39,146 bases of DNA from Ottowia flava (GTDB lineage: Bacteria; Pseudomonadota; Gammaproteobacteria; Burkholderiales; Burkholderiaceae_C). The position numbers and the translations under genes are program-made. Numbering within the stretch: position 1 is the stretch's first letter; each line of letters begins with the position of its first letter. This document shows, one piece after another, positions 504 to 39,146 of the stretch. The notes beneath the pieces were generated by a model that worked only from the letters and a program-made list of their open reading frames with translations, made no database searches and was not told where the DNA came from. The stretch covers positions 1 through 39,146 of the forward strand of contig NZ_VRUA01000026.1 of NCBI RefSeq assembly GCF_008017535.1, written 5' to 3'.

Positions 504-1853
504 ATGTCCGCTGCGCCGGCCCCGCGTCGCCGCTCCCGATCGCGCACTTGGGTCGTCGCCCGTGCCCTGGCCCTGTGGACCGGTGTCACGCTGGGTATGG
601 CCGCGCCGGCGGCAGCACAGTTGGCCGTCAACGCCGGCTTTGACACGCTGAACTGCGGCACCGGAGGCACCGACTCAGCCCCCCTCGTCGATGCGGCAGG
701 CGGCCTGACCTACACCAACATGATCTGCACGAACGGGCCGGCCTACTCTGCCATCCGCGCCAGCGGCTATGGCGTGGGAACCACCTCGAATTCACACGTT
801 GCCACGCCCTTCGTCGGCATGACAGGCGAAATAAGCCGCCCCGGCGAGCGTTTCTCGCTGACCAGTGTGATGGCTACCTCTGCCTGGAGGGACGGCATGA
901 CGGTCACCTGGACAGGCTACCGCGGCGCGACGACCGTCGGGACTGTCGTCCATACCCCCTTGGCGACGGGGCCCACCCTGGTCGACCTGAGCGCACTCAG
1001 CAACGTGGATCGCGTGACCATCGCACGCAGCGGTGGCACTTTGCACCCCGGTTACGACGCCGGTTGGGAGGGTGACAACGTCGTCCTCGACAACCTGCGC
1101 TACACCTTGCTGCCCTCGCAAGTGACGATCGCCGTCACGCCGCCGACCAACGGCACTTTGACGTGCACGCCCAACCCGGTGTCGATTGGCGAGACCATCA
1201 CCTGCACTGCCACCCCGGCCGCCAACTACGTGCTGACAGGCTTTACCGGCTGCACCCGCGTGGGCACCACCAACACCTGCACGCTGACCAACGTCCTGGC
1301 GCCAGCGACGATCTCGGCTGCGTTCGCGCTGGTGACCTATCCCGTCACCGCGACACCGCCCACCAACGGTACGCTGAGTTGCACGCCCAATCCGGTGCCG
1401 CATGGCTCGAGCACGACCTGCACGGCGGTGCCCGATGCCACGTATGAGCTGACCGCGTTCACCGGCTGCACGCGCAACGGCTCGACCAACACCTGTACGC
1501 GGACCAACGTCACCGCGCCGGCCACGGTTTCCGCCGCGTTTGCGCGCGCGCCCGTCACCATCGCCATCACGTCGCCCACCAACGGTACGCTGAGCTGCAC
1601 ACCCAACCCGGTCGCCTTCGGCGGCAACGCCACCTGCACCGCGACGCCCGCGCCCGGCTTCGAGCTGACCGGCTTCACTGGCTGCACCCGCGTTGGCATG
1701 ACCAACACCTGCACCCTGACCAACGTGTCGGCGGCCACGACAGTGGCGGCAAGCTTCGGCGTGCCCGTGCCCACGCTGAACGAATGGGCGCTGATGCTGC
1801 TGGGCCTGGGCGCGGCCGGGCTGGGCGCGCGGCGGCTGCGTCGGCAAAACTGA
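504..1853 (+). CDS. Exported protein with three Cys-rich InlB-B-like repeats and an IPTL-CTERM sorting tail
   Basis: The N-terminus has Arg-rich, hydrophobic and AxA-type segments (ending AAPAAAQ) typical of a Sec signal peptide. Three tandem repeats of about 70 residues start near bases 1122, 1332 and 1554. Each reads roughly PTNGTL(S/T)CTPNPV...CTA...GFTGCTR...NTCT.TNV and has four Cys, which could form two disulfides; they resemble divergent InlB B-repeats. The last 28 residues are VPTLNEWALMLLGLG, a short membrane segment and RRLRRQN, the IPTL-CTERM signal that is recognised by an exosortase-like enzyme in other species. No exosortase lies in this window. The frame is open back to GTG 432/ATG 435; ATG 504 is preferred because it gives a normal signal peptide, but no ribosome-binding site decides it. 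Ligand and function are unknown; a surface or secreted adhesin-like role is inference. Confidence 0.8.
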   Translation: MSAAPAPRRRSRSRTWVVARALALWTGVTLGMAAPAAAQLAVNAGFDTLNCGTGGTDSAPLVDAAGGLTYTNMICTNGPAYSAIRASGYGVGTTSNSHVATPFVGMTGEISRPGERFSLTSVMATSAWRDGMTVTWTGYRGATTVGTVVHTPLATGPTLVDLSALSNVDRVTIARSGGTLHPGYDAGWEGDNVVLDNLRYTLLPSQVTIAVTPPTNGTLTCTPNPVSIGETITCTATPAANYVLTGFTGCTRVGTTNTCTLTNVLAPATISAAFALVTYPVTATPPTNGTLSCTPNPVPHGSSTTCTAVPDATYELTAFTGCTRNGSTNTCTRTNVTAPATVSAAFARAPVTIAITSPTNGTLSCTPNPVAFGGNATCTATPAPGFELTGFTGCTRVGMTNTCTLTNVSAATTVAASFGVPVPTLNEWALMLLGLGAAGLGARRLRRQN

Positions 1854-12051: not shown

Positions 12052-12075
12052 AAAAAAAAGCCCGGCGAACCGGGC
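12052..12075 (-). terminator. Terminator of the DUF937 gene
   Basis: On the minus strand GCCCGG-TTCG-CCGGGC is followed by eight T; it lies 18 bases after the DUF937 stop codon. Confidence 0.9.
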
Positions 12076-34878: not shown

Positions 34879-35469
34879 TCAACGCCGGTCGACCAGCGCG
34901 TGGGCGATGGTGCCCAGGTCGACGTATTCCAGCTCGCTGCCGGCCGGCACGCCGCGCGCCAGGCGGGTCACGGTCAGGCCGCGGTTCTTCAGCGCCTGCG
35001 CGATGACGTGGGCCGTCGTCTCTCCTTCGGCGGTGAAGTTGGTGGCCAGGATGACCTCCTGCACCGTGCCGTCGCTGGCGCGCTCGATCAGCTTGTGCAT
35101 GCCGATGTCGCGCGGCCCCACGCCGTCCAGCGGGCTGAGCTTGCCCATCAGCACAAAGTAGCGCCCCTTGAACGCCCCCGTGCGCTCCAGCGCCGCCTGA
35201 TCGGCCGGCGTTTCCACCACCGCCAGCTTGCTGGCGTCGCGGCGCGGGTCCTGGCAGGTGGCGCACACCTCGCCTTCGGTGAACGTGTGGCACAGCGCGC
35301 AATGGCGCACCTGGCTCACCGCGTCCTGCAGCGACCGCGCCAGCAGTTGCGCGCCCTCGCGGTCGTGCTGCAGCAAATGAAACGCCATGCGCTGCGCCGA
35401 GCGCACGCCCACGCCCGGCAGGCGCCGCAGCGCCTGCACCAGGGTGTCGAGACTGTGGGTGTCACTCAT
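34879..35469 (-). CDS. recR: Recombination mediator protein RecR
   Basis: RecR works with RecO (and RecF) to load RecA on gapped DNA. The 196-residue protein has the N-terminal helix-hairpin-helix ([20 protein letters not shown]), a Cys4 zinc finger (Cys57, Cys60, Cys69, Cys72), and a Toprim domain ([19 protein letters not shown] and [20 protein letters not shown]). The Walker-like [15 protein letters not shown] segment closes the protein. It lies downstream of dnaX and ybaB in the standard bacterial order, but 185 bases with hairpins and a repeat separate it from ybaB. Confidence 0.97.
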
Positions 35470-35654: not shown

Positions 35655-35990
35655 TTAAAACGGGAATTTCATGCCCGGCGGCATGCCCGGCATGCCCGCC
35701 GGCATCAGCTTGCCCATCTTCTCGGCTGAGACTTCCTCGGCCTTGCGCACGGCGGCGTTGAAGGCGGCGGCGACCAGGTCTTCCAGCATGTCCTTGTCGT
35801 CGGTCAGCAGGCTCGGATCGATGGTGACGCGCTTGACGTCGTGCTTGCCCGTCATCAGCACCTTGACCATGCCGGCGCCGGATTCGCCTTCGACTTCCAT
35901 CTGCGCCAGCTCGTCCTGCGCCTTCTTCATGTTGTCCTGCATGGCCTGCGCCTGCTTCATCAGGCCAGCCAGTTGTCCTTTGTTGAACAT
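35655..35990 (-). CDS. ybaB: YbaB/EbfC nucleoid-associated protein
   Basis: A small DNA-binding protein that associates with the nucleoid as a dimer. The 111-residue sequence has the typical start [20 protein letters not shown], the core [30 protein letters not shown] and [14 protein letters not shown]. The C-terminus is Met/Gly/Pro-rich ([13 protein letters not shown]), longer than in E. coli. It sits between dnaX and recR as in most bacteria. Confidence 0.96.
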
Positions 35991-36136
35991 CGTTTGATTT
36001 CCTTTTCAGATCCATGGACGGCGGCGCGCTGCGCCACCAGTTGTGTTCGAAACCCGTGCGCCGCGCGCCAGAGCGCTGGTCATGGGGGCATCCATTTGAA
36101 CGAGGCAGCCCGCCCAGCTTGGCTCCGGGTGCGCCG

Positions 36137-38410
36137 TCACAGCGGTTTGATGCTGCCAGGGACGATTTTCGCCCCAAACTCGCGCATCATTTCCTGCACG
36201 AAGGGGTCGGCCATCACCAGCGCCTCAGCCGCCTTCATGCGCTGGGCCGCCGCGTAGTGGTTGCGGCGCGATGGGCTGTCGGCCACGCGGCCCAGCTCGA
36301 CGTTCAGACGCACGCCGTGCCCGGCGTCGGCCAGCGCGGCCTGCAGCCGGTCGCGCACGCCGGCTTGGCGCAGGGTTTCGGTTTCCACACGCAGCGTCCA
36401 CTGATCGGCCTGCCGTTCGGCCAGTTGGGCCTGCAGGGCCAGTTCGCGCACCAGGGCCGTCACCTTTTCGCGCGCGATCAGGTCCTGCACCAGCGCATGC
36501 CAGAAGTCGCCCAGCTCGGTGGCGGCGACCGGTTCGGGCTCGGGCCCCGCAGCAGGCTGCGCCTGGGCACGATCGACACTGCCTTCACGCACCTTGACCG
36601 CTATCGAATCGGAAGCTGCCTGCGCAGGTGGTTGTAGGGCTAGCGCCGAATTTTCTTCAAATTCCTGGGGACGCGCATGCGCTGCCCCGCGCACGGGCAG
36701 GGGGCGCAGCGGCGAGCCAGCGGCCGGTGGCAAACCGCTGGGCGGGGCCATCGCCATCGCATCGCGCGGATCGTCGGCGTCGCCCCAATCGTCAGGCCAC
36801 GGCGCGCCCGCGTCGTCCGCGTCAATAGGTGCGAAGGCGGCGTCGCCCATGTCGTCTGCTGGGTTGTCGGCGAGGTCAGTCGCGCCACCCTCCGCGCCCG
36901 CACCGGGCGCGACGTCTGACAGCGTCGCGCCCGGTGCGGGCGTCGCTAACGCTGACGTCGCTGCGGCGGTCTGCGCGGCGAGACTCACCGCAGGTGCTGC
37001 CTCGTGGGTCACGGCGGCCGCCGCAGGCTCGGCGGGCGCATCGGTCATCACCGATTCCGCGTTCACTGCGCGATCCTGCGGCGGCGCCGTGTCCATGGTC
37101 GCCGGCGGCGCTGGGTCCGGGCTCGCCGGTGCCTTCTCCGGCGACGCGAGCTTCGGCTGCGCGACCGGGGGTGGCGCACTGGCCACCGGTGCCGCTGGCT
37201 GCGCGGCAGGTGGGCTGACCGACGCCGCGGCCGCGGGCGAGGTGGCCGCTGGCGCCGCGCCTTCAGCTGATTTCAGAGTTTTTTTTTCCGCCGCGTCCGC
37301 TGGACCGGTACGGGGCTTGAACGGCAACAGCCGCAGCAGCACCATGGTCAAACCAGCGTATTCGTCGGGCGCCAGGCCCAGCTCGGTGCGGCCGTGGATG
37401 CACAGGCTGTACAGCAACTGGGTTTCGTCGGCCGGCATCAACGCGGCCAGGCGCGCGGTTTCCTGCGCGTCGGGGTCGGCGGCATCGACGGCCATGTCGG
37501 GCACCGCCTGCTGCACGGCCATGCGTTGCAGCACGCTGGCCATATCTTCCAGCGTGGTGGCGGCGGACAGGCCGGTGGCCCGCAGCTGGTTGGCCAGCTC
37601 GACTACGGTCTTGCCGTCGGCCTGCGCCAGCGCCTCGATCAGGCGGAACACGACAGTGCGGTCGACCGAGCCGAGCATTTGCCGCACACCGGCTTCCTGC
37701 AACTGGCCCGAGCCGAACGCGATCGCCTGGTCGGTCAGACTGAGCGCGTCGCGCATCGAGCCGCGGGCGGCGCGCGCCAAGAGGCGCAGCGCCTGCGGTT
37801 CGGCCGGCACGTTTTCGGCGGCCAGCACGTGGGTGAGGTGCTCCAGCACCGTCTCGGGCGCCATCGGCCGCAGGTTGAACTGCAGGCAGCGGCTGAGCAC
37901 GGTGACCGGCACCTTCTGCGGGTCGGTCGTGGCCAGCACGAACTTGAGGTATTCGGGCGGCTCTTCCAGCGTCTTCAACATGGCGTTGAAGGCGTGGCCG
38001 GTGAGCATGTGCACCTCGTCGATCATGAAGACCTTGAAGCGGCCCTGCACCGGCTTGTAGACGGCTTGCTCCAGCAATTGCTGCACTTCGTCCACGCCAC
38101 GGTTGCTGGCGGCGTCGAGTTCGGTGTAGTCGACGAAGCGACCGGCATCGATCTCGGTGCAGGCGGCGCACACGCCGCAAGGCTCGGCCGTGATGCCGCC
38201 CTGCCCGTCCGGGCCAGTGCAATTGAGCGATTTGGCCAGGATGCGCGACACCGTGGTTTTGCCCACGCCGCGCGTGCCGGTGAACAGGTAGGCGTGGTGC
38301 AGGCGCTGCTGCGTCAGCGCGTTGGTCAGGGCCTGGACGACGTGCTCCTGACCCACCATCTCCGTGAACTTGCGCGGGCGGTATTTGCGGGCCAGAACCA
38401 AATAAGACAT
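36137..38410 (-). CDS. dnaX: DNA polymerase III subunits tau/gamma, with repeat insertion and A9 slippery run
   Basis: DnaX is the clamp-loader ATPase; full-length tau also binds polymerase and helicase. The 757-residue protein has Walker A GTRGVGKTT (45-53), a Cys4 zinc site (Cys64, Cys78, Cys81, Cys84), Walker B FMIDEVHML and the SRC motif in VLSRCLQF. Domains I-III end near LLRLLPFKP (about residue 365). A Pro/Ala-rich linker follows, then the C-terminal tau part (DFWHALVQDLIAREKV...EFGAKIVPGSIKPL). Codons 375-377 (GAA AAA AAA) contain nine A; a -1 shift adds five codons and stops, giving a 382-residue gamma. The linker contains a copy of the dispersed repeat at about residues 582-604. ybaB and recR lie downstream. 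Confidence 0.97.
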   Translation of the reverse strand: MSYLVLARKYRPRKFTEMVGQEHVVQALTNALTQQRLHHAYLFTGTRGVGKTTVSRILAKSLNCTGPDGQGGITAEPCGVCAACTEIDAGRFVDYTELDAASNRGVDEVQQLLEQAVYKPVQGRFKVFMIDEVHMLTGHAFNAMLKTLEEPPEYLKFVLATTDPQKVPVTVLSRCLQFNLRPMAPETVLEHLTHVLAAENVPAEPQALRLLARAARGSMRDALSLTDQAIAFGSGQLQEAGVRQMLGSVDRTVVFRLIEALAQADGKTVVELANQLRATGLSAATTLEDMASVLQRMAVQQAVPDMAVDAADPDAQETARLAALMPADETQLLYSLCIHGRTELGLAPDEYAGLTMVLLRLLPFKPRTGPADAAEKKTLKSAEGAAPAATSPAAAASVSPPAAQPAAPVASAPPPVAQPKLASPEKAPASPDPAPPATMDTAPPQDRAVNAESVMTDAPAEPAAAAVTHEAAPAVSLAAQTAAATSALATPAPGATLSDVAPGAGAEGGATDLADNPADDMGDAAFAPIDADDAGAPWPDDWGDADDPRDAMAMAPPSGLPPAAGSPLRPLPVRGAAHARPQEFEENSALALQPPAQAASDSIAVKVREGSVDRAQAQPAAGPEPEPVAATELGDFWHALVQDLIAREKVTALVRELALQAQLAERQADQWTLRVETETLRQAGVRDRLQAALADAGHGVRLNVELGRVADSPSRRNHYAAAQRMKAAEALVMADPFVQEMMREFGAKIVPGSIKPL
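36600..36665 (+). repeat. Dispersed repeat, copy 16, inside dnaX
   Basis: GCTATCGAATCGGAAGCTGC, CTGCGCAGGTGGTTGTAGGG, then GCGCCGAATTTTCTTCAAAT. It shares 28 identical bases with copy 4 and 27 with copy 1. It lies antisense to dnaX and is translated in frame within the linker of tau. Confidence 0.9.
37279..37287 (-). other. A9 slippery run in dnaX, probable gamma frameshift site
   Basis: On the coding strand the frame reads GCG GAA AAA AAA ACT CTG. A -1 ribosomal shift on A-AAA-AAA, or one extra A in the mRNA, gives AAC TCT GAA ATC AGC TGA (stop at 37263-37265). Loss of one A gives CTC TGA (stop at 37273-37275). It is the only such A run in this GC-rich gene. Confidence 0.7.
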
Positions 38411-38516
38411 GCTGAGGATTTTACGGTGTGAGACCCGGGGCCTCCGGCTTAGAGCCGCGCCCCTGAAACTGATGCATGTACGCCACGATGTACCCCTTTT
38501 TTATCAAAAGGCCGGT

Positions 38517-38861
38517 ATGCTGCGTCGCAACAGACATTCCCGACTCATCGTAGACATCAACGCCACCGGCAGGCTGTATCAGCCGGCCCATGTGGCGTCT
38601 GACTTGCCCGACATGCTCGAAATCATCGAAGCTTGCGCGCCCATCACCCCCGAAGGCTGCGCGGACGCCGATCCTCAGGCCATGGTGCTGGTAGGCTCGC
38701 TGGATGGCTGCTGCCACCCCCGCGCAGGTCGCCTGAAAGCCCGCCTGGTGGATTGCCAATGCCACGACCAGTTGGCACAGTTGCGCGCCGAAGTCACGCA
38801 CCTGCTCACCCTGAGTTTTGGCCCTGTTGAAGCCCAGCGCCGCCTGCAGGCACTACAATAG
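38517..38861 (+). CDS. Small protein of unknown function
   Basis: A 114-residue frame divergent from dnaX, ending with its TAG at the first bases of the 4.5S RNA gene. It begins MLRRNRHSRLIVDINATGRL and includes LPDMLEIIEACAPITP and GCCHPRAGRLKARLVDCQC; five Cys are present but no known domain was recognised. There is no signal peptide or membrane segment. The frame is open upstream to 38409 (ATG 38472 also possible), and no ribosome-binding site decides the start. Codon bias and position support a real gene, but its function is unknown. Confidence 0.5.
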   Translation: MLRRNRHSRLIVDINATGRLYQPAHVASDLPDMLEIIEACAPITPEGCADADPQAMVLVGSLDGCCHPRAGRLKARLVDCQCHDQLAQLRAEVTHLLTLSFGPVEAQRRLQALQ

Positions 38862-38950
38862 ACCCCGACGGGCCTTCCCGCATGGTGAAGGAGCCAACCG
38901 GGTCAGGTGGGGAACCAAGCAGCCCTAACTTTGGAGTCAGTGCCGGGGTC
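38861..38950 (+). ncRNA. ffs: 4.5S RNA, signal recognition particle RNA
   Basis: The RNA has the conserved Ffh-binding loop: GGGTCAGGTGGGGAACCAAG followed by CAGCCCTA, close to the E. coli GGUCAGG...GGAA...AAGCAGCC. The ends GACCCCG (38861-38867) and CGGGGTC (38944-38950) pair to close a single long hairpin of about 90 bases. TACAAT at 38854-38859 is a likely -10 box, so the exact 5' end may be a few bases later than given. It lies on the far side of the small gene from dnaX, a common arrangement. Confidence 0.93.
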
Positions 38951-38977
38951 AAGGCTCGTCACCCTATTCAGCGGCAA

Positions 38978-39052
38978 CGCTATCTTTTGCATAGCTGCCC
39001 GCGCTGATTGCTCTAGCGCAAACAGCCCAAATCATTCCAAGTCTTGATTTCT
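38978..39052 (+). repeat. Dispersed intergenic repeat, copy 14
   Basis: GCTATCTTTTGCATAGCTGC, CCGCGCTGATTGCTCTAGCG, then AAATCATTCCAAGTCTTGAT. The full block order is kept. It lies between the 4.5S RNA gene and the transposase tail. Confidence 0.75.
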
Positions 39053-39073
39053 GGGGGAGTGACCCCAGACGGA

Positions 39074-39146
39074 CTAGCTGTAGTTTCTCAACACGTTGTT
39101 CCCGTCGAATGCGAGTCGCGTGATGGGAGGCAGGTGTTCGGTGGCT
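39074..39146 (-). mobile_element. 3' end of a transposase gene (IS481-like), second copy, inverted
   Basis: On the minus strand the frame runs from the window edge to TAG at 39074-39076 and encodes the same C-terminus as bases 6-77 (ending NNVLRNYS). Bases 39078-39146 are an exact inverted copy of 5-73. The gene body lies beyond the window. Confidence 0.5.

Follow-up and report, generated by a model that had tools for sequence, protein, structure and literature searches.

Transcriptional slippage in the dnaX gene of Thermus thermophilus was measured by Larsen et al. 2000 (cited through PMC1088944 and PMC5009743), and the Thermus mechanism is described as using stop codons in both non-zero frames (PMC5009743). 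According to the latter source, Thermus is said to slip at transcription owing to a second lysine tRNA, with anticodon CUU; efficient slippage in bacteria is reported for runs of nine A residues; in E. coli, ribosomal shifting works better on A_AAA_AAG; and slippage in a Roseiflexus IS element with the motif T5C5 is enabled by a stem loop in the nascent RNA. A GeneTack study described two-ORF dnaX genes with poly-A runs, mostly A10, which were read as RNA polymerase slippage (PMC3711429). A 2012 review stated that most bacteria beyond enterobacteria and Thermus keep no dnaX frameshift signatures and may lack gamma (PMC3290774), and protein-truncating slippage was left aside in another study because its function is hard to show by comparison (PMC1088944). 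For dnaX slippage in Comamonas, Burkholderia or Betaproteobacteria, no earlier description was found in the open-access literature, which is not proof of priority.

The window, i.e., the whole 39,146-nt stretch of DNA analyzed (Ottowia flava, contig NZ_VRUA01000026.1), carries a dnaX gene with a run of nine A residues on its sense strand (A9), which, judging from related genes, is very probably a programmed slip site for a gamma-like short DnaX. Matches to PF13177, PF22608, PF12169, and PF12170 (AAA+ core, lid, domain III, and domain V) all passed their own cut-offs, and the protein scored 411 bits against NCBIfam TIGR02397 dnaX_nterm (cut-off 250). The coordinates of the features are given in Table 1. 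The dnaX frame around the run reads GCG GAA AAA AAA ACT CTG AAA TCA, with GAA as residue 375 and TCA as residue 381. The run begins in codon 375 of 757, and the domain III match (PF12169) reaches residue 365. Past the run, the +1 frame comes to a stop after one codon and the -1 frame after five. Full-length tau from the zero frame has 79.4 kDa. The products predicted for the other frames are of 378 amino acids and 41.1 kDa with the C-terminus EKKL (A8 mRNA), 379 amino acids ending in EKKKL (A11 mRNA), and 382 amino acids and 41.5 kDa ending in EKKNSEIS (A10 mRNA or -1 shift). Because domain III ends at residue 365 and domain V spans residues 634 to 753, a product ending at A9 would be the three-domain gamma form.

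Table 1. Features of the Ottowia flava dnaX locus; positions refer to the window
Feature	Position	Strand	Basis
dnaX, DNA polymerase III tau/gamma subunit, zero-frame product of 757 aa	36137..38410	-	Pfam and NCBIfam matches
DnaX domain III, residues 238-365, final domain retained in the predicted gamma	37316..37699	-	PF12169, E 4.2e-18
Tau domain V, residues 634-753, missing from the predicted gamma	36152..36511	-	PF12170, E 1e-9
A9 putative slip run (T9 on the + strand), codons GAA AAA AAA ACT, residues 375-378	37279..37287	-	sequence and relatives
+1-frame TGA; would end the product of A8 or A11 mRNA, 378 or 379 aa	37273..37275	-	sequence
-1-frame TGA; would terminate the 382-aa product of A10 mRNA or of ribosomal -1 slippage	37263..37265	-	sequence
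Predicted RNA hairpin, -11.9 kcal/mol, ends 2 nt before the run; possible nascent-RNA stimulator	37290..37316	-	folding
Gene for the bacterial small SRP RNA, opposite strand, upstream of dnaX	38867-38963	+	RF00169, 57.1 bits
ORF downstream of dnaX, presumably YbaB/EbfC	35655-35990	-	
ORF downstream of dnaX, presumably RecR	34879-35469	-	

The initial annotation had described a run in the codons GAA AAA AAA ACT of a GC-rich dnaX gene, lying just past domain III, with the -1 stop after five codons (382 residues) and the +1 stop after one, and all of this was recovered, with both TGA codons located and a GC content of 70% for the gene. Its remark that long A runs are otherwise avoided in the gene agrees with A9 being the sole A run of at least 7 within dnaX. 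The rest of the window contains one further A/T run of at least 7, an A8 at 12052-12059, and 14 distinct A/T runs of at least 9 (counted from 19 overlapping matches) were found in the 4.12-Mb genome. The longest of these 14 is an A13 at contig C53:153617-153629 (L217). Apart from dnaX, the clearest A9 on a coding sense strand was, by eye, that at contig C18:41866-41874 (L209), a few codons past the possible start of a 514-aa open frame, which we take from its sequence to resemble an outer-membrane receptor. The order dnaX-ybaB-recR is the usual one for these genes. An SRP RNA gene was also present at 7 of the 12 other dnaX loci scanned, several of the remaining loci being perhaps too short to reach it.

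Nearest relatives were collected in a scan with DnaX residues 1-388, from which the best 80 of at least 589 were picked by protein similarity and not by the run. They include Acidovorax, Comamonas, Delftia, Variovorax, Rhodoferax, Ramlibacter, Limnohabitans, Hydrogenophaga, and Curvibacter, and many are metagenome-assembled. Exactly A9 in the identical codon phase was present in 80/80 (best 80 of at least 589), and the lysine codons at the site were therefore AAA in 160/160, whereas AAG (769) exceeded AAA (464) in the remainder of dnaX in 81 genes (these 80 and that of the window). Such conservation against the codon preference had been named as a check in the initial annotation. AAG codons in place of the run, mentioned there as counterevidence, occurred in 0/80 (best 80 of at least 589), and the three AAG exceptions found in the wider sample, described below, represent a different slippery site, so that this check speaks for the proposal. 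The flanks vary among the 80, with GAA or CAA (Glu/Gln) as the preceding codon and ACT, ACA, AGC, AGT, or ACC (Thr/Ser) as the following one. A protein-level need for Lys-Lys was rejected as the reason, the codons being fixed in these 80 while the flanking residues vary.

As the 80 closest relatives are a biased set, a wider sample was taken. The family sample comprised 90 loci from a search of 200 family genomes (30 top-scoring and 60 hand-picked among the matches listed, the weakest matches being absent), and the order sample 90 loci from 89 of the 150 genomes searched within the order, with 3 loci lacking a readable ORF. In the family sample, which includes the window's own genome, A9 was found in 52/90 loci and no run of at least 7 in 38/90 (among the matches listed). 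The pooled set held 247 distinct dnaX sequences, 164 from the window's family and 83 from other families of the order. Exact A9 was present in 126/164 family genes, and the 38/164 others all lacked a run of at least 7, so that no A7, A8, or A10 was seen at the site in the family. The fixity of AAA in the 126-gene set follows by definition, the set having been picked by the run, and was not used as evidence; the genes are related and the counts thus not independent, and weight was placed on the contrast between run-bearing and run-less genes. From the comparison with relatives, A9 is more than chance, and a chance origin of the run in dnaX appears very unlikely.

All 126 family genes with a run of at least 8 have exactly 9. 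This constancy speaks against phase variation, in which the DNA run would change in length and switch tau off and on, although assemblies give one length per genome and are blind to mixtures. Homopolymers act as contingency loci in some bacteria, but tau is expected to be essential, and phase variation at this site is hardly credible. Base profiles of 45 nt on each side of the run placed the conservation mostly near it, approximately CGGC(T/G)G-A9-CTCTGA. The codon directly 5' of the run (window 37289-37291, minus strand) is an alanine codon in 104 of the 126 A9 genes, as GCT in 67, GCG in 32, GCA in 5, and GCC in 0; elsewhere in the A9 genes, GCC makes up 43% of alanine codons. The absence of GCC before the run may reflect a role in the hairpin or in the slip context.

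Stop codons follow the run closely in both other frames. In 125/126 A9 genes, the -1 stop lay within 11 codons, L198 being the exception with 21. The +1 stop came one codon past the run in 100/126 and within 8 codons in 125/126, the exception here being L267 with 55. By comparison, in the linker background of 81 A9 genes, a -1 stop occurred within 10 codons in 22% and a +1 stop within 8 codons in 15%. Among positions in codons 362-391 of the 38 family genes that lack a run, 1.9% had both stops within 11 codons, and 4/38 genes held any such position; in 67 run-less genes of other families, the values were 6.3% of positions and 19/67 genes. Stops and run are coupled. A point against is that, of the 142 genes with a run of at least 8 A, 8 miss one or both stops within 11 codons, two of these in the window's family. 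The kind of slippage that was set aside earlier as hard to assess can be tested in practice by asking whether the run and the stops in both other frames are conserved together, and by using relatives without the run for comparison.

The presence of stops in both frames favors RNA polymerase slippage of the Thermus type over -1 frameshifting of the E. coli type. RNA polymerase likely does most of the slipping at A9, considering the stops in both frames, the two conserved A residues beyond the heptamer, and the absence of AAG from the 80 nearest relatives (best 80 of at least 589). In this mechanism, the polymerase would slip on A9 while transcribing, leaving part of the mRNAs with 10, 11, or 8 A. 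Ordinary translation of these mRNAs would meet the nearby stop in the resulting frame and yield a product of about 41 kDa with domains I-III, and mRNAs with 9 (or 12) A would give full-length tau. A nascent-RNA hairpin just 5' of the run may assist slippage. The sequences themselves show the run, its conservation, and the coupled stops in both frames; the occurrence of slippage and the existence, amount, and use of gamma are inferred. Against polymerase slippage here counts the behavior of the E. coli enzyme, which is reported to slip less on A than on T runs and to make no deletions on the A runs tested (PMC6260861).

The alternative is that the ribosome slips by -1 on A_AAA_AAA, as in programmed E. 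coli-type frameshifting, and terminates after NSEIS on a faithful RNA. The heptamer takes 7 of the 9 A (the last base of codon 375 plus both lysine codons), stands in the correct phase, and makes such a shift physically possible; the near -1 stops in 125/126 A9 genes suit it as well. The equally frequent +1 stops and the conserved first and ninth A are left unexplained by ribosomal slippage, and the better E. coli site, A_AAA_AAG, occurs in 0/80 of the nearest relatives (best 80 of at least 589). Together with the evidence on stimulators below, this makes a mainly ribosomal origin unlikely. The initial annotation had left the choice between an E. coli-type and a Thermus-type mechanism undecided; the comparison favors transcriptional slippage, with -1 frameshifting as a possible route.

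On the tree of the N-terminal 360 residues (FastTree), A9 needs 4 changes in the family. One reading of these is that the run was gained once, at the root of a clade of 131 genes (support 85), and lost three times. A9 is present in 126/131 genes of this clade, and 33 of the 38 run-less family genes fall outside it. Five clade members lack A9, and in three of these A_AAA_AAG stands in the shift phase: L174 and L178 read TCA AAA AAG CCT GA, with the -1 stop 1 codon on in each, and L254 reads GGA AAA AAG, with the -1 stop 3 codons on. A fourth, L264, has neither A9 nor A_AAA_AAG. The fifth, L233 (genome G299), reads GAN AAA AAG with Ns at and after the site, and its open frame ends after 387 codons, the broken frame being probably a sequencing error; it was treated as uninformative, although the tree counts it among the three losses. 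The heptamer in three A9-less members suggests that the product rather than the mechanism is under selection. Programmed gamma production, as proposed in the initial annotation, is strongly supported by this comparison, through A9 in 80/80 relatives (best 80 of at least 589), the paired stops, and the heptamer in 3/5 A9-less clade members.

It is also conceivable that no functional gamma is made, the run being tolerated and the stops acting as a fail-safe that limits the waste from unavoidable slippage. No sign of functional use was reported for 40 of 53 slip-prone gene groups with homologs (PMC1088944), and both A9 and the heptamer are missing from 35/164 genes of the pooled family set. L264 and the 33 genes outside the clade that lack both sites mean that gamma made by the A9 or heptamer route is not needed family-wide. 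A single synonymous change from AAA to AAG would, however, break the run, and 126/131 clade genes, which are GC-rich, retain it nevertheless, while three of the five that do not have the other known dnaX shift site. A mere fail-safe is therefore quite improbable, and a programmed slip site remains the preferred reading.

Folding of the 126 A9 genes gave hairpins ending within 12 nt of the run with a mean of -11.5 kcal/mol, compared to -9.8 for shuffled sequences and -8.8 for the linker. The structure z score in the window from -37 to -1 was -0.72 (SE 0.10) in the 126 A9 genes versus +0.09 (SE 0.14) for the corresponding segment of 37 run-less genes; from -41 to -5, the contrast was weaker (-0.85, SE 0.09, versus -0.46, SE 0.20). 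No common position or sequence of the upstream hairpins was found among the A9 genes, and they vary from gene to gene. A conserved, positioned RNA element was dropped from consideration, as conservation lies mostly near the run and the upstream hairpins are common but variable. The predicted upstream structure is compatible with a hairpin that the nascent RNA would form inside the exit channel of the polymerase, as described for the Roseiflexus IS element.

Stimulators of the ribosomal kind were sought on both sides of the run. Downstream hairpins were modestly stabler than shuffles (-14.3 versus -12.6 kcal/mol, 63 of the 126 A9 genes folded), which would suit a ribosomal stimulator, and showed no conserved position. 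The downstream z score from +15 to +51 was no stronger in A9 genes than in run-less genes (-0.41 versus -0.48), counting against ribosomal slippage; from +6 to +42, the values were -0.34 and -0.13. Shine-Dalgarno-like sequences upstream of the run, which ribosomal slippage could have used, were not clearly enriched in the 126 A9 genes (-6 kcal/mol or below in 11.1% versus 9.7% of background windows; mean energy -3.35 versus -2.67), and no Rfam frameshift element was matched in 36100-39146 at E up to 5, the SRP RNA being the only match. Among the 12 other dnaX loci scanned with Rfam, one neisseria_FSE match was obtained, in L083 of another family (f45), where RF01843, the Neisseria frameshift element, scored 29.1 bits at 1340-1379 (minus strand), below the gathering score of 50. 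That gene has an in-phase A_AAA_AAG at codon 391.

Lysine tRNA genes were searched in 79 chosen genomes with a sequence pattern covering the D arm and the anticodon loop, so that any CUU tRNA whose D arm deviates from it would escape. By this pattern, tRNA-Lys(CUU) was present in 25/33 A9 genomes and 24/27 run-less genomes of the family, i.e., it was not commoner with A9, and the Ottowia flava genome has tRNA-Lys(UUU) only, a point in favor of ribosomal slippage, as is the E. coli heptamer in three clade members. Of the genomes with that heptamer, G302 and G178 have UUU only and G248 both UUU and CUU. The 8 A9 genomes lacking an exact CUU match include the window's genome and its two congeners. 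In one congener (G164, C1:3682948-3682969), a tRNA-Lys match with one mismatch and the anticodon loop CTT lies about 0.9 kb from another tRNA-like match. The two-lysine-tRNA rule was not supported, CUU being no more frequent in A9 genomes and the window's genome having UUU only.

Runs of A also recur outside the family. In other families of the order, the linker holds an A9 or A10 in 13/83 genes. These 13 genes come from 7 families, their runs lie at other codons and take up three different phases, and 10/13 have both stops within 11 codons. For the rest of the class, 70 loci were taken from 113 genomes with a match, giving 69 readable genes; 10/69 have an A9 or A10 linker run, 8 of these 10 with both stops within 11 codons, and in 3 more genes A_AAA_AAG is closely followed by a -1 stop, in one case near the C-terminus. 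Not all such recurring runs need be functional, above all in AT-rich genomes. Across all 247 genes, runs of at least 8 require 15 changes. It is possible, if rather doubtful, that gamma production by dnaX toggles repeatedly between polymerase slippage and ribosomal frameshifting, and that the Comamonadaceae clade fixed a hairpin-assisted A9, a composite of the Thermus and Roseiflexus arrangements, once, some descendants later moving to a ribosomal site with the short protein kept.

That a large clade conserves A9 together with stops in both other frames argues, on sequence grounds, that some of the bacteria beyond enterobacteria and Thermus do make gamma, and the clade offers many cultured species in which the purpose of gamma can be asked. 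Compared to the two-ORF dnaX genes of the GeneTack study, the poly-A run in dnaX and the reading as polymerase slippage are shared (PMC3711429), but recoding there makes tau, whereas in the window's gene tau comes from standard decoding and the short form would come from slippage. As in the Roseiflexus IS element, many A9 genes have a predicted stem loop immediately 5' of the run; the motif there is T5C5 and the stem loop is the reported enabling feature (PMC5009743), and here it amounts to a statistical tendency. The -1 frameshifting of E. coli and Neisseria dnaX concerns the same gene, with a -1 stop soon after the site and A_AAA_AAG in three A9-less clade members. The window differs in having no A_AAA_AAG, no clear enrichment of Shine-Dalgarno-like sequence among the A9 genes, no Rfam frameshift match, and close +1 stops too.

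Thermus dnaX is the closest in kind, with a sense-strand A9, tau as one zero-frame ORF, near stops in both frames, and a gamma-like truncated product (PMC5009743). It differs in that slippage was measured in Thermus and is predicted in Ottowia flava, that Thermus has two lysine tRNAs and Ottowia flava one by pattern, and that the run here, in a distant lineage (Comamonadaceae), lies at codon 375 of 757, just past domain III. Marks of the Thermus type are also mRNA of mixed run length and the presence of tau and gamma at about 1:1. From the genes compared, the locus appears to represent a Thermus-type system that has become fixed in a large clade of proteobacteria.
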